Assembly: GCA_022825945.1 (NCBI GenBank)
Contig: JAJDVS010000049.1
Coordinates: forward strand, 1 to 64,000
Reading direction: 5' to 3'
DNA length: 64,000 nucleotides
DNA from: Pseudomonadales bacterium
GTDB taxonomy: Bacteria; Pseudomonadota; Gammaproteobacteria; Pseudomonadales; Pseudohongiellaceae
Notes under the pieces: generated by a model
What the model was told of the DNA's origin: nothing
What the model saw: only the letters and a program-made list of their open reading frames with translations
Database searches by the model: none
Shown: piece by piece, positions 4,950 through 62,946 of the stretch
Layout: each line of letters starts with the position of its first letter
How positions within the stretch are numbered: position 1 is the stretch's first letter
Made by a program: the position numbers and the translations under genes

Positions 4950-5087
4950 TGCGCAGTCGCGGGATCTCATCGCTTGGCTGCTGCAAGGGATTCTGCGACT
5001 ACGCTTCGCTCCGCGCAGAATGACAGGGTGGGGCTTCGCTCCGCGCAGAATGACATGAAGCCTGGAGCGCCAGAATGAGAATTGCCG
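4950..5087. repeat. Hairpin core plus right TIR of the same family, upstream of aroC
   Basis: CGCAGTCGCGGGATCTC-N18-GGGATTCTGCGACTACG..GCAGAATGACATGAAGCCTGGAGCGCCAGAATGAGAATTGCCG; left TIR not found. Confidence 0.7.
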
Positions 5088-9407: not shown

Positions 9408-10487
9408 TTGAGCGCGAAACGGAATCCAACGATTTTGCGGAACAGGAAACCATACCGGACACTGCTGTTTGCAGGTTTGCTGCTGAGCTTTGCGGCAAGT
9501 CTGGCGCGGGCTCATGCCACTGTCCCGCAACCCGACGGCGCCGGGGTCGCCTCAACCGTCGGCGCCGCCGCGGCGAACCAGCAAAGCCCAGAATCGCTGG
9601 ACCAGCGCATCCTGGAATTGCAAAGCCAACTGGCCCGGGTCGAAGAGGAGGTGGCGCGGGTCAACCGGGAACGCGCGGAATGGCTCGCCCGGCTTGACGA
9701 TCTCGACGCCCAGATCATACTCGCCAGACAACTGGTTGCTTCCCGGTCGCAACAGCTCGCCCCGCTACAGGCCAATCTGGCTGTGGAAGCCAGGCAACAG
9801 GCTCGGCTCGAAGCCGGACAGGAAGCGGCTGTTGTCGCCGCGGCGGAAGCGGAGGCGGAAACCGCCGCCCGGGCGGAACGGGAAGCCGCCGCGGAAGGTA
9901 GCCTGTTTAGTCCCGCAACCATTGTTATCGGTGGGGCTTTGCTGCTGCTCGGTCTGGCTGTGCTGCGGATGTTGCGCGCAACAGGCCCCGAGCAAAATGC
10001 CACAAGAAAAGCGACAGTAACCCCTCCGGGATATACGGATAACAAAACAGCGCAAAAAACGAAAAAACATGCGGAGGTTGGAACGAATACGGAACGGGAA
10101 GAGTTTCCGACGGACAGGGGAGTCCAGGACCACAGCGACGATTTTGGGGAAGAAACCTTCAGGATCGAGCCGGGCGGCGGACCTGAAGACGCTGCGGAAA
10201 TTCCGCCCCCGGAAGGCGAATATGTCGATGACCCGAACCCTCCGCAAGACCCGGGAGAAATCCCGGACGACGAGGACGACTCCGATGCGGACGACGATTA
10301 CGTCATCGAACTCGACAACGGCGACGAGGAGGAAATCGCCGAACGGCTCAATCTCGCCTATTCCTTCCATCGGATGGGGGACAGCGAGCAGGCTCGCAGA
10401 ATTCTCGAGCAGGTCATCCGGGTCGGCAATGAAGCACAGGTCAGTGAAGCCAGGCAATTGCTGGCAATCATTCATGACCTGAACTGA
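9408..10487 (+). CDS. Short FimV/HubP-like protein (signal, coiled coil, TM, acidic linker, C-terminal TPR-like FimV domain)
   Basis: C-terminus EEEIAERLNLAYSFHRMGDSEQARRILEQVIRVGNEAQVSEARQLLAII resembles the FimV C-terminal domain; position between asd and truA matches fimV synteny. Confidence 0.75.
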   Translation: MSAKRNPTILRNRKPYRTLLFAGLLLSFAASLARAHATVPQPDGAGVASTVGAAAANQQSPESLDQRILELQSQLARVEEEVARVNRERAEWLARLDDLDAQIILARQLVASRSQQLAPLQANLAVEARQQARLEAGQEAAVVAAAEAEAETAARAEREAAAEGSLFSPATIVIGGALLLLGLAVLRMLRATGPEQNATRKATVTPPGYTDNKTAQKTKKHAEVGTNTEREEFPTDRGVQDHSDDFGEETFRIEPGGGPEDAAEIPPPEGEYVDDPNPPQDPGEIPDDEDDSDADDDYVIELDNGDEEEIAERLNLAYSFHRMGDSEQARRILEQVIRVGNEAQVSEARQLLAIIHDLN

Positions 10488-24056: not shown

Positions 24057-24079
24057 GTTCCAGTTTCCCGGATTTATTC

Positions 24080-24172
24080 CAGCAATTCCCATTATGGCGC
24101 TGGGCGCGCCCACATCAGTCATCCTGCGCGCAGAATGACATGAGGGTTGGAGCGCCAAAATGAGAATTTCTG
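24080..24172. mobile_element. MITE-like element, copy 1 (93 bp)
   Basis: TIRs CAGCAATTCCCATTATGGCGCT / CAGAAATTCTCATTTTGGCGCT (19/22) flanked by exact 9-bp direct repeats GATTTATTC (24071-24079, 24173-24181). Confidence 0.8.
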
Positions 24173-24175
24173 GAT

Positions 24176-24676
24176 TTATTCGCAGTTCTCCGGCGCCTGC
24201 AGGTTCGAGCGGAGCCTTTCCCGCAAGGCTTCGATTTGCGCGCAGGGGATGCCGGGATTGCCTTGCAGATTCACGGAAATCAGATTTTCCAGACTGAGCA
24301 GGGGGGAAACGTCGGTCAGGGCGTTATCCGACAGGTTGAGCGCGCTCAGCAGGGGCAGGTCCTCCAGCGGTGTCACATTGCTGATGTTGTTGCCGCCCAG
24401 GTCGAGAAAGCGCAGCCGCTCCAGCACCGAAACCAGCTCCAGCGAAGCGATTTCCGAAGCCGGGCAGGAAAGCACCGCAAGCTCGGCGGCCTCCACCCCC
24501 TGCTGCTCCATGGCGAAATTGACGCAGCCCTGCAAATCCGCATCGGCAACTTCGCCCGCGGGCAGCCGCCCCTGGGGGTCATAAACCGCCCGATCATTCA
24601 CCGAAACCGCCAGATTCCGCCCGCAGCCCGCCAGAACAGCCGCCAGCGCCGCCACGGTCAGGATCGATCTGCTCAT
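24176..24676 (-). CDS. Leucine-rich-repeat lipoprotein
   Basis: MSRSILTVAALAAVLAGCG lipobox; LRR units LRFLDLGGNNISNVTPLEDLPLLSALNLSDNALTDVSPLLSLENLISVNLQGNP. Confidence 0.75.
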   Translation of the reverse strand: MSRSILTVAALAAVLAGCGRNLAVSVNDRAVYDPQGRLPAGEVADADLQGCVNFAMEQQGVEAAELAVLSCPASEIASLELVSVLERLRFLDLGGNNISNVTPLEDLPLLSALNLSDNALTDVSPLLSLENLISVNLQGNPGIPCAQIEALRERLRSNLQAPENCE

Positions 24677-39811: not shown

Positions 39812-39975
39812 CCTTTCCCGTCATTCCGCGCGAAGTCGCAGAATCTCATTGGGAGGCCACTGAAAGAGATTCTGCGACTACGCTTCGCTCCGCGCAGAAT
39901 GACGGGAAGGTGGGTTTCGCTCCGCGCGGAATGACGGGAAGGCGGGTTTCGCTCCGCGCGGAATGACGGGAAGGG
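39812..39975. repeat. Hairpin-core repeat followed by 32-bp tandem repeats, between djlA and the korB-like gene
   Basis: GTCGCAGAATCTC-N18-GAGATTCTGCGAC core; then GACGGGAAGG[T/C]GGGTTTCGCTCCGCGCGGAAT at 39901-39932 and 39933-39964 plus partial units on both sides. Confidence 0.8.
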
Positions 39976-51509: not shown

Positions 51510-51590
51510 AAACAGGAATGGAGTTGCCTTGAACAGGCCCCAATAAAGCAGATGCCGTAACCTTGAGATTCCAATTCCACACACAACTTC

Positions 51591-51734
51591 CAGCAATTCT
51601 CATTATGGCGCTCCGGGAGCCTGCGCCGCAGGCTCCCAGGCTTCATGTCATTCTGCGCGAAGCGAAGCGTAGTCGCGGAATCTCCCGCAGTGGTCACGCG
51701 ATAAGCGCACCCATTGCCATAATGCGAATTGCCG
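51591..51734. mobile_element. MITE-like element, copy 2 (144 bp) containing a nested GGGAGCCTGC-GCC-GCAGGCTCCC hairpin
   Basis: TIRs CAGCAATTCTCATTATGG / CGGCAATTCGCATTATGG (16/18); flanks CACAACTTC (51582-51590) and CGCAACTTC (51735-51743), 8/9 identical. Confidence 0.78.
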
Positions 51735-51789
51735 CGCAACTTCAGCATTTTTTGGCGAGCCCTTGCCGGAAGAGTAGAATCGCCCGGTC

Positions 51790-52805: not shown

Positions 52806-53951
52806 TCAGGCCAGCACTTTCCGGAACACATCCATCGCCACCGCCATTTCCTCCCGGCTGCCGAGTGAAATGCGGCAGTGGGATTGTTCCAGCGGCGGAA
52901 AATCCCGGCCCACCAGCACATTGTGTTCGAGGCAGGCCGAGCGGAATTGTGCCGCTGGCATGCGCAGGTTGACGAAAATGTGGTTGGTGTTGGAGTCGGG
53001 CGCCTCGTAGCCGAGATCGCGGAAGAAGCCAACAACCTCCGCCCGGATTTCGGCGTTTTCCCGGATTTCCCAGGCCATGTGCTCCTCGTCCTGGAGGGCG
53101 GTCAGCGCGGCGACGGCGCCGAGCATGTTGACGTCGCCCATGCCCCAGGCATCGCGAATCCTGCGCAGGGTTTTCGGCTGCCCCAGGGCAAAGCCGATCC
53201 GCATGCCGGCCAGGCCGTGGGCCTTGGAGAAGGAGCGGGTGATGAAGACGTTTTCGTATTCCAGCGCCAGAGGCAGCGCGGTTTCCATGGCGCCTTCCGC
53301 GGCATAGTAGATGTAGGCTTCATCGATGTGGATAAAGGTATCGGGATTCTCGTCCATTACCCGGCGCACGAAGGCTTCCACCGCCGCGGGGCCATGCACC
53401 GTGCCGGTGGGGTTGTTCGGATTGCAGAAATAGAGCATTCCGGCGTCTTCGGCATTGGCGGCAAGCTGGTCGAGATCGATGCCGAGGTCGCGGCCAAGGG
53501 GCAATTCCACGATGCCGGCGCCGATGGTGCGCGCGGTGGCCAGACTCGTGGAATAGGTGGGCATGGGAGTCACCAGGCCTTTTTCCGCATTGCAGAAGGC
53601 GCGCACCGCGCCTTGCAGCAGCGGCGTTGAGCCAGTGGCGAGCTGAACATTGCTCCGTTCGACGCCGTAATGGTCGGCAAGCCCCTGCTCGAGTTCATTC
53701 ACATGGTCCGGCGCGTAGCCCCGGCCGACGCGCTTGCTGGTGTGGGCGCGAATGGCGTCCATGGTTTTCGGGCCGGGGCCGCGCGCGCTTTCATTCTGGT
53801 TCAACTGGATGATGCCGTTGTCATACATGCCCGCCGAATGGTCGGCCCGGGTCTGGGCATGGGTCTTGCGGCCAAGCAGGGCGGGGCCCGACAGCGCGCC
53901 CACGGCGGCGCCGATGGCAATGGTTCCAAATCCACGTCGTGTCGTTTTCAT
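52806..53951 (-). CDS. Tat-signal PLP-dependent aminotransferase (histidinol-phosphate aminotransferase-like)
   Basis: N-terminus MKTTRRGFGTIAIGAAVGALSGPALLGRKTHAQ; NQNESARGPGPKTMDAI, FCNPNNPTGTVHG, ITRSFSKAHGLAGMRIGFALG. Confidence 0.88.
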   Translation of the reverse strand: MKTTRRGFGTIAIGAAVGALSGPALLGRKTHAQTRADHSAGMYDNGIIQLNQNESARGPGPKTMDAIRAHTSKRVGRGYAPDHVNELEQGLADHYGVERSNVQLATGSTPLLQGAVRAFCNAEKGLVTPMPTYSTSLATARTIGAGIVELPLGRDLGIDLDQLAANAEDAGMLYFCNPNNPTGTVHGPAAVEAFVRRVMDENPDTFIHIDEAYIYYAAEGAMETALPLALEYENVFITRSFSKAHGLAGMRIGFALGQPKTLRRIRDAWGMGDVNMLGAVAALTALQDEEHMAWEIRENAEIRAEVVGFFRDLGYEAPDSNTNHIFVNLRMPAAQFRSACLEHNVLVGRDFPPLEQSHCRISLGSREEMAVAMDVFRKVLA

Positions 53952-54058
53952 TCATTCCTCCCGGGGCCCGGTCAGGGGCTGTCTGGTGAGTTCAGGTGGC
54001 TGCAAGGTCCGCATCATAACCCCGGGGCAAAATCCCGCCAAGCCATTTCCCGCCAATC

Positions 54059-54213
54059 CAGCAATTCTCATTATGGCGCTCCAACCTTCATGTCATTCTG
54101 CGCGAAGCGAAGCGTAGTCGCAGAATCTCCTGCAGTAGCCACCCAATGAGATCCTGCGACTGCGCGCAGGATGACTGATGCGAGCGCGCCCATTGCCAAA
54201 ATGAGAATTGCCG
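54059..54213. mobile_element. MITE-like element, copy 3 (155 bp) with full hairpin core
   Basis: TIRs CAGCAATTCTCATTATGG / CGGCAATTCTCATTTTGG (16/18); exact 9-bp flanks CCGCCAATC (54050-54058, 54214-54222); core hairpin 54089-54175 with an 18-nt loop. Confidence 0.82.
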
Positions 54214-54300
54214 CCGCCAATCCGGTCGATGGGTTATTGATTTACACTGGCGCCTGATTTATAAGGATTCACGGCGAACAGCAAACCCGAGGGGAGACCC

Positions 54301-55656
54301 ATGAGCTACAAATACAAGATTGACCGTCGCGCTTTTATGAAACAGGCCGGCATTGCCGCGGTCGCGGGTTCAGTGGCCGGCGCAGGCAGCCTCAGGGCCC
54401 AGCAGGGCGTTCCCCGCGGCGCCTCTGCCGCAGACTATGACTTTGACGAAATCTATGATCGCATCGGCACCGATTGCAGCAAGTGGGATGGCCAGATCGA
54501 GCGCTGGGGCGAGCAACTGAAAATCCCCATGGGGGTCGCCGACATGGATTTTCGGGTAGCGCCCTGTATCACGGAAGCCTTGCGGGAGCGAATTTCGCAC
54601 GAGGTTTACGGCTATATGGAGACGCCGGATTCCTACCACGATTCGATCGTCAACTGGAACGAACGCCGCTATGGCACGGTGCTTGAGCGCGGCATGCTGC
54701 TCGATTCCCCCGCGCTGCTGCCGGGCCTGCTCGCCGCGCTGCGGGCTTTCAATCCTCCCGGCGCCAGGGTGGTCATGCAGACTCCGGGCTACAACGGCTT
54801 TTTCTCAACCATCCGCAAGGGCTTCGTGATCGAGGAAAACCGCCTGCGGGAAGTGAACGGCGTGTACGAAATGGATTTCGACGATCTCGACCGCAAGCTG
54901 GCCCAGGACGACGTGCATACTTTCATTCTCTGCAATCCGCACAATCCCATGGGCAATTGCTGGGACCGCGCCACCCTCACCGAACTCGGCGAGCTTTGCA
55001 ACCGGCACAATGTCATCGTGCTCGCGGACGAAATTCACTGCGACTTCGTCAATGAAGGCCGGGAATACGTGCCCTACGCCAATCTCGCCGATGAACTCGT
55101 CATGAACAGCGTGACTTTCAAGTCCGCCAGCAAGTCCTTCAATCTCGCCGCCTTCAAGGATGCCTATCTCTTTTCCCACAATCCGGAGCTGATGTCCCGC
55201 ATCCGCGCCGTGGGCGACAATGCCACGATCAACTCCCTCGGCATCATCGCCTCCCAGGCCGCCCTGGAAGAGGGCGGCGACTGGCTCGACGCGGTGCGGG
55301 CCTACCTGTCCGACAATGCAAGGTATGCGTCGAACTTCATCAATGAGCGGGTTCCCCACATCAGCGCCAACGAGCCCGAAGGGACTTATCTGTCCTGGCT
55401 CAACGTGGAGCCCCTGATCGAGCGTCTCGGCGCCGTGGAAACCGCCGCCGCCGAGACTGCGGCGCAAAGCCCGGATGCCGACGAAATCACGCCGGAAGCC
55501 ATCGTCGAGCGCTATTTCGTAGAAAACGCCGGCGTCAAGATCAATCCAGGCTCATCGTACTGGGGCCCCGGCCATATGCGGATGAACCTCGGCCTGGCCC
55601 GCCCCCTCCTCGAAGAAGCCCTGGGCCGAATCGAGCAAGCCGCCCTGCAAGCCTGA
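54301..55656 (+). CDS. Tat-signal PLP-dependent enzyme, PatB/MalY (C-S lyase/aminotransferase)-like
   Basis: N-terminus KIDRRAFMKQAGIAAVAGSVAGAGSLRAQQ; CSKWDGQIERWGEQLKIPMGVADMDF; LCNPHNPMGNCWDR; DEIHCDFV; SASKSFNLAAFKDAY. Confidence 0.88.
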   Translation: MSYKYKIDRRAFMKQAGIAAVAGSVAGAGSLRAQQGVPRGASAADYDFDEIYDRIGTDCSKWDGQIERWGEQLKIPMGVADMDFRVAPCITEALRERISHEVYGYMETPDSYHDSIVNWNERRYGTVLERGMLLDSPALLPGLLAALRAFNPPGARVVMQTPGYNGFFSTIRKGFVIEENRLREVNGVYEMDFDDLDRKLAQDDVHTFILCNPHNPMGNCWDRATLTELGELCNRHNVIVLADEIHCDFVNEGREYVPYANLADELVMNSVTFKSASKSFNLAAFKDAYLFSHNPELMSRIRAVGDNATINSLGIIASQAALEEGGDWLDAVRAYLSDNARYASNFINERVPHISANEPEGTYLSWLNVEPLIERLGAVETAAAETAAQSPDADEITPEAIVERYFVENAGVKINPGSSYWGPGHMRMNLGLARPLLEEALGRIEQAALQA

Positions 55657-62847: not shown

Positions 62848-62946
62848 CCTTTTCCGTCGTTCTGCTTGCAGTCGCAGAATCTCCTTGAGAGGCCACTGCA
62901 TGAGATTCTGCGACTGCGCTTCGCTTCGCGCAGAATGACGGAAAGG
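62848..62946. repeat. Hairpin-core repeat upstream of dinG
   Basis: CCTTTTCCGTCGTTCTGCTTGCAGTCGCAGAATCTC-N18-GAGATTCTGCGACTGCGCTTCGCTTCGCGCAGAATGACGGAAAGG. Confidence 0.78.

Follow-up and report, generated by a model that had tools for sequence, protein, structure and literature searches.

A 155-bp MITE in an uncultivated gammaproteobacterium with ends like those of ISNCY-annotated insertion sequences from other phyla

In the 64,000-nucleotide stretch of a Pseudomonadales genome analyzed here (the window), two divergent genes encoding class I/II aminotransferase-fold proteins (PF00155) are separated by a 349-bp gap that holds a short, hairpin-forming segment between inverted repeats. Is this segment a transposon, and if so, what moves it? 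An earlier note had described a 155-bp element with terminal inverted repeats (TIRs) and exact 9-bp repeats of CCGCCAATC at 54050-54222, and the sequence agrees exactly. The intergenic setting between divergent PLP-enzyme genes that it gave is likewise borne out by the PF00155 domains on both flanking genes. The N-termini of both aminotransferase-like proteins resemble, by eye, twin-arginine (Tat) signal sequences, which are unusual for PLP enzymes.

The two 18-bp ends of the element are identical at 16 of 18 positions. Its direct repeat can also be read as 10 bp, with C as the next base on either side; we adopt the 9-bp reading because other copies show 9-bp target-site duplications (TSDs) and ends of the form 5'-CA...TG-3'. 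Neither a transposase nor any other gene lies inside, and the length is under the MITE size of ~600 bp. The element folds far more stably than shuffled versions of itself (z = -7.2 as DNA, -8.0 as RNA), in keeping with its earlier description as non-coding with a strong hairpin. Immediately to its right, TTGATT-N17-TATAAG looks by eye like a promoter for the right-hand gene; this motif is not among the reports of a consensus promoter scan.

Table. Positions of the focal element, its parts and neighbors, related copies in the window and the relative IS on contig C53
Feature	Coordinates	Strand	Evidence and remarks
Complete MITE, 155 bp	54059..54213	+	TIRs, TSD, at least 40 relatives in own genome
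Left TSD CCGCCAATC	54050..54058	.	Read from sequence; single copy at the G098:C39 empty site
Left TIR CAGCAATTCTCATTATGG	54059..54076	+	
Non-coding interior	54077..54195	+	Palindromic GTCATTCTGCGCGAAGCGAAG-type repeat, one long hairpin
Right TIR CGGCAATTCTCATTTTGG	54196..54213	-	Forward-strand reading CCAAAATGAGAATTGCCG
Right TSD CCGCCAATC	54214..54222	.	Read from sequence
Left flanking aminotransferase-fold gene	52806-53951	-	PF00155
Right flanking aminotransferase-fold gene	54301-55656	+	PF00155
Second complete copy, 144 bp	51591..51734	+	TSD CACAACTTC/CGCAACTTC (8/9) at 51582-51590, 51735-51743
Third complete copy, short form, 93 bp	24080..24172	-	TSD GATTTATTC (9/9) at 24071-24079, 24173-24181
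One-ended copy: TIR CGGCAATTCTCATTCTGG and two interior repeat units	5004..5087	-	Partner TIR not found
Three tandem interior-type repeat units without TIRs	39883..39967	-	No TIR match nearby
Relative IS, 1620 bp	C53:13325-14557 (L272:1288-2907)		TIRs CAGCAATTCCCGGTAACT/CAGCAATTCCCGCTTGTG; TSD CAAGTAGGG on both sides

Further copies with the same TIR and TSD structure, for which the earlier note had advised a search, are plentiful. The 16-bp TIR core, at up to two mismatches, has 99 matches in the own assembly (2.64 Mb, 113 contigs) and 0 for a reversed-pattern control, and a whole-element search of this genome found at least 40 related places. Within the stretches fetched around the TIR matches, which are the basis of the paired-copy statistics, 36 copies have paired facing ends; a perfect 9-bp TSD flanks 14 of the 36, and at least seven of nine positions match in 23, where random position pairs match this well in 60 of 29,000 cases (0.2%). 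Copy lengths include 155, 186, 217 and 248 bp, a series that rises by 31 bp at a time because of a tandem repeat inside the element. The position of several copies at contig ends suggests that the assembly was broken by the repeats. The window itself holds two TSD-flanked copies that the earlier note overlooked (51591-51734 and 24080-24172), and the ortholog of the former insertion in the relative G098 is 379 bp long with CACAACTTC on both sides. The variable base of CATTWTGG is A at one end and T at the other in 19 of the 23 own-genome copies with a TSD of at least 7/9; T/T occurs in 0 of 23, and the assignment of A and T relative to the interior goes either way. A 1644-bp TIR pair on C39, considered as an autonomous copy, was rejected, having a poor right end, no TSD and no transposase by tblastn.

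Comparison of orthologous loci supplies the empty site that the earlier note had also proposed to look for. At G098:C39, where the flanks are about 95% identical, the element is absent and a single CCGCCAATC is present; the ortholog in G096 (C151) is also empty, with a junction short by 2 bp. The TIRs, the TSDs, the copy number and the empty site with its single CCGCCAATC confirm the focal element as a genuine MITE. In G095, a sister species, the identical 9-bp target is occupied in the opposite orientation by a MITE of another subfamily (C55, ~9433-9587; L330:4434-4588). In-situ inversion was set aside because this element is nearer to the own-genome C92 and C19 copies (98.7% identity) than to the focal copy (92.9%), which is itself 97.4% identical to the copy on C9. 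On the simplest reading, the G095 element is probably an independent insertion into a preferred target, with gene conversion as the alternative. Symmetrized TSDs favor G at position 1 and C at position 9, at 0.64 each in the own genome and 0.45 over 54 sites.

The 18-bp end has at least one match in 14 of the 137 family genomes; five of them, all of the same genus (G000, G095, G096, G097 and G098), have at least 10. Single TIR matches in G081 and G134 were discarded as autonomous candidates: a search of the fetched flanks turned up no partner TIR, and nearby ORFs read, from their translations, as PIN-domain-like, subtilisin-like and AbgT-like transporter proteins. Searches of the own assembly and of 136 family genomes detected no transposase from the CTCATTWTGG clade.

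Outside the family, when 84,980 species genomes were scanned for CAGCAATTCTCATTWTGGD, at least 120 stretches from many phyla matched. Estimated from the specified positions, chance would account for something over ten matches across all of these genomes, and an unpaired end is therefore weak evidence by itself. Of the 120 matches listed, however, 40 are accompanied by a facing end and by a TSD of at least 7/9, and the duplication is perfect in 29 of these. The 40 paired elements are mostly of MITE size (83-304 bp) or else 1418 or 1602 bp long; the five longer ones are ISs from Arthrospira PCC 9108 and Desulfoferrobacter suflitae. Hosts of the 18-bp end include cyanobacteria, Verrucomicrobia, Desulfobacterota, Acetobacteraceae and Methylococcaceae, among others. 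The load of this end is very high in Candidatus Desantisbacteria CG2_30_40_21 (G141), with 148 in 2.1 Mb, and in Verrucomicrobia bin-117 (G138), with 322 in 8.8 Mb. Two IMG/VR contigs with the TIR gave no facing pair in the paired-end screen. The whole element had no counterpart in a plasmid collection, a result that a host-specific interior would predict.

Autonomous ISs bearing this end are 1.4-1.9 kb long, encode a transposase of ~437 aa and are flanked by 9-bp TSDs. The Desulfoferrobacter suflitae IS measures 1602 bp, with a 437-aa ORF and TSDs TCCAGCTGA and CCCAGTCCG; that of Arthrospira PCC 9108 measures 1418-1421 bp and is present in about 15 copies; and the Calothrix, Anabaena cylindrica and Nostoc edaphicum plasmid ISs measure 1865-1890 bp, with ends CAGCAATTCTCATTTTRA and perfect 9-bp TSDs. 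All IS duplications checked are 9/9 save that of one of five Arthrospira copies. The Desulfoferrobacter genome combines its IS with 155-bp MITEs that have identical ends and TSDs of 9/9 and 8/9, and in Arthrospira two 141-bp MITEs stand beside the ISs, one with a 9/9 TSD and the other with no in-register match. An autonomous IS with an identical TIR and a 9-bp TSD, which the earlier note had advised looking for, thus exists in Desulfoferrobacter, Arthrospira and Nostocales; together with the TIR- and TSD-bounded copies and the empty site, it agrees with the non-autonomous transposon anatomy proposed there.

One cyanobacterial relative of the partner transposase, on the Gloeothece verrucosa plasmid Cy782202 (WP_013335080.1), is annotated as ISNCY family. 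The ends of the G. verrucosa copy itself were looked for and not found. The partner transposase falls below the curated cut-offs of IS4 family models (NF033591, 21.7 bits vs 152) and of Pfam IS4-type models (PF01609, 13.1 vs a cut-off of 23; PF13808, 18.8 vs 32.3), and a literature search for the end sequences of ISfinder groups such as ISMae2 and ISNpu3 found none. Both the ISNCY-type TIR CAGCAATTCTCATTWTGG and the 9-bp TSD are present in the window element and the transposase gene is absent; being non-coding, the element is therefore a derivative or satellite of an ISNCY-type IS and not a member IS.

We consider it highly probable that the MITE is moved in trans by a DDE-type transposase of the ~437-aa, ISNCY-annotated type that recognizes 5'-CAGCAATTCTCATTWTGG and leaves 9-bp TSDs. 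Such an enzyme would act on a non-coding element that supplies no protein of its own, mobilize it, and insert it at a presumed staggered cut that would yield the 9-bp duplication. The type is that of the ISs found elsewhere, and it, rather than some other type, would have moved the copies in the own genome. The cognate gene may have been lost there, may never have been assembled, or may have been supplied transiently by horizontal transfer.

A nearer candidate is encoded in the own genome, where the Desulfoferrobacter transposase as query finds only a ~31%-identical relative on C53 and a truncated copy on C60. The C53 IS belongs to the same superfamily with another end type. In favor of mobilization of the MITE by this related but distinct IS are the shared superfamily, the perfect 9-bp TSD (CAAGTAGGG) and the outer 9-10 bp of the TIR (CAGCAATTC) common to both. 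Yet the inner half of its TIR (CAGCAATTCCCGGTAACT; CAGCAATTCCCG...) reads CCGSTAA, as against TCATTWTGG in the MITE, and no copy of the C53-type IS was detected in the MITE-rich relatives G095-G098. Aligned with four relatives, the full-length C53 transposase shows E->G in the RW(R/K)(I/V)ENE motif and LK->PE in the next motif. The E of the former is probably catalytic, by analogy with IS4-like DDE enzymes, and the C53 copy is therefore probably dead; the C60 copy is truncated. We regard mobilization by the C53 IS as unlikely. Less probable still is the use of an IS1634-like transposase, to which we give little credence. In G104:C214 (L148 108-673), an exact 18-bp TIR in right-end orientation does follow an IS1634-like C-terminus at a distance of 135 bp, and plasmid matches are annotated as IS1634 family. 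But there is one such fragment only, it sits at the start of a contig, and its left end is out of view; the own-genome IS1634-like copy at C62:57001 is not among the TIR matches, and all complete autonomous elements with the MITE TIR encode the ~437-aa type instead.

The remaining explanation denies that the element is a transposon: it would be a palindromic repeat of the REP/BIME type that owes its spread to recombination or to a REP-type nuclease, and its direct repeats would be coincidental. The interior palindrome GTCATTCTGCGCGAAGCGAAG is indeed abundant without TIRs too, and the element folds strongly. Against this stand 14 perfect 9-bp TSDs, the exact empty site, and the recurrence of the same ends across phyla around unrelated interiors. 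For the TIR-bounded form, the TSDs and the empty site refute the REP/BIME reading, which we hold to be extremely improbable.

The interior of the MITE has a distribution of its own. The own genome has 251 copies of its repeat TCATTCTGMGCGNAGCGAAG, and the repeat is also abundant in genomes of the same genus that have hardly any MITE ends or none, for example 44 copies vs 3 end matches in the single-contig G134, 37 vs 1 in the single-contig G135, and 241 vs 6 in G108. The GTCATTCTGCGCGAAGCGAAG-type interior grows by 31-bp units in other MITE copies. In the window, the GTCATTCTGCGCGRAGCGAAG repeat is also seen without paired MITE ends at 39883-39967, 62919-62939 and 5004-5054, and some unpaired copies are tandem, at ~30-32-bp spacing. 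The interior repeat thus reaches more of the clade than the MITE does. The MITE has the look of a resident repeat with IS ends placed around it, which suggests that its interior was captured from a resident palindromic repeat. At E 1e-5, the interiors of the cross-phylum set form 20 groups that show no relationship to each other or to the focal interior; the L220 element of the Acetobacteraceae MAG palsa_925 has dozens of relatives. The capture origin is supported in the own clade and only suggested elsewhere. We speculate, tentatively and at somewhat less than even confidence, that one 18-bp end with a 9-bp TSD has, in at least half a dozen phyla, repeatedly built MITEs from the abundant palindromic repeats of its hosts.

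Several described systems resemble the focal family in part. The ISNCY-annotated cyanobacterial ISs and their relatives share the TIR CAGCAATTCTCATTTTGG, identical or near-identical in Calothrix, Anabaena, Nostoc, Arthrospira and Desulfoferrobacter, and the 9-bp TSD seen in the window MITE; they differ in being 1.4-1.9 kb long and transposase-coding, whereas the window element has 155 bp and no coding capacity. Nezha is a cyanobacterial MITE for which mobilization by ISNpu3-like elements has been proposed (PMC3049150; PMC10969869, citing Zhou et al. 2008). The likeness to Nezha, as to prokaryotic MITEs in general, is one of description: small, non-coding, TIR-bounded, TSD-flanked, hairpin-forming, and outnumbering any autonomous partner. 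BrickBuilt of Porphyromonas gingivalis is, like the focal family, an intergenic MITE with an internal tandem minisatellite (PMC4596501), but its unit is 23 bp rather than 31 bp, and its host and ends differ. The focal interior (GTCATTCTGCGCGAAGCGAAG...) is itself a dispersed palindromic repeat of REP type with hundreds of copies in the clade; here it is enclosed by IS ends and TSDs, whereas many interior-type copies elsewhere lack them. The focal MITE is a well-documented further example of a known element type and not a new type.

These results link a MITE from an uncultivated gammaproteobacterium with a family of transposases that is still listed as unclassified, and they provide this family, across phyla, with an end and a duplication length that are diagnostic. 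In Desulfoferrobacter and Arthrospira, IS and MITE occur in one genome, so mobilization in trans is directly testable there. The specialist interest lies in the constancy of the end across phyla while the interior changes: with constant ends around host-specific, unrelated interiors, the origin of bacterial MITEs becomes testable. If the capture scenario is true, satellite transposons would originate when resident repeats are captured de novo and not by internal deletion of a parent IS.
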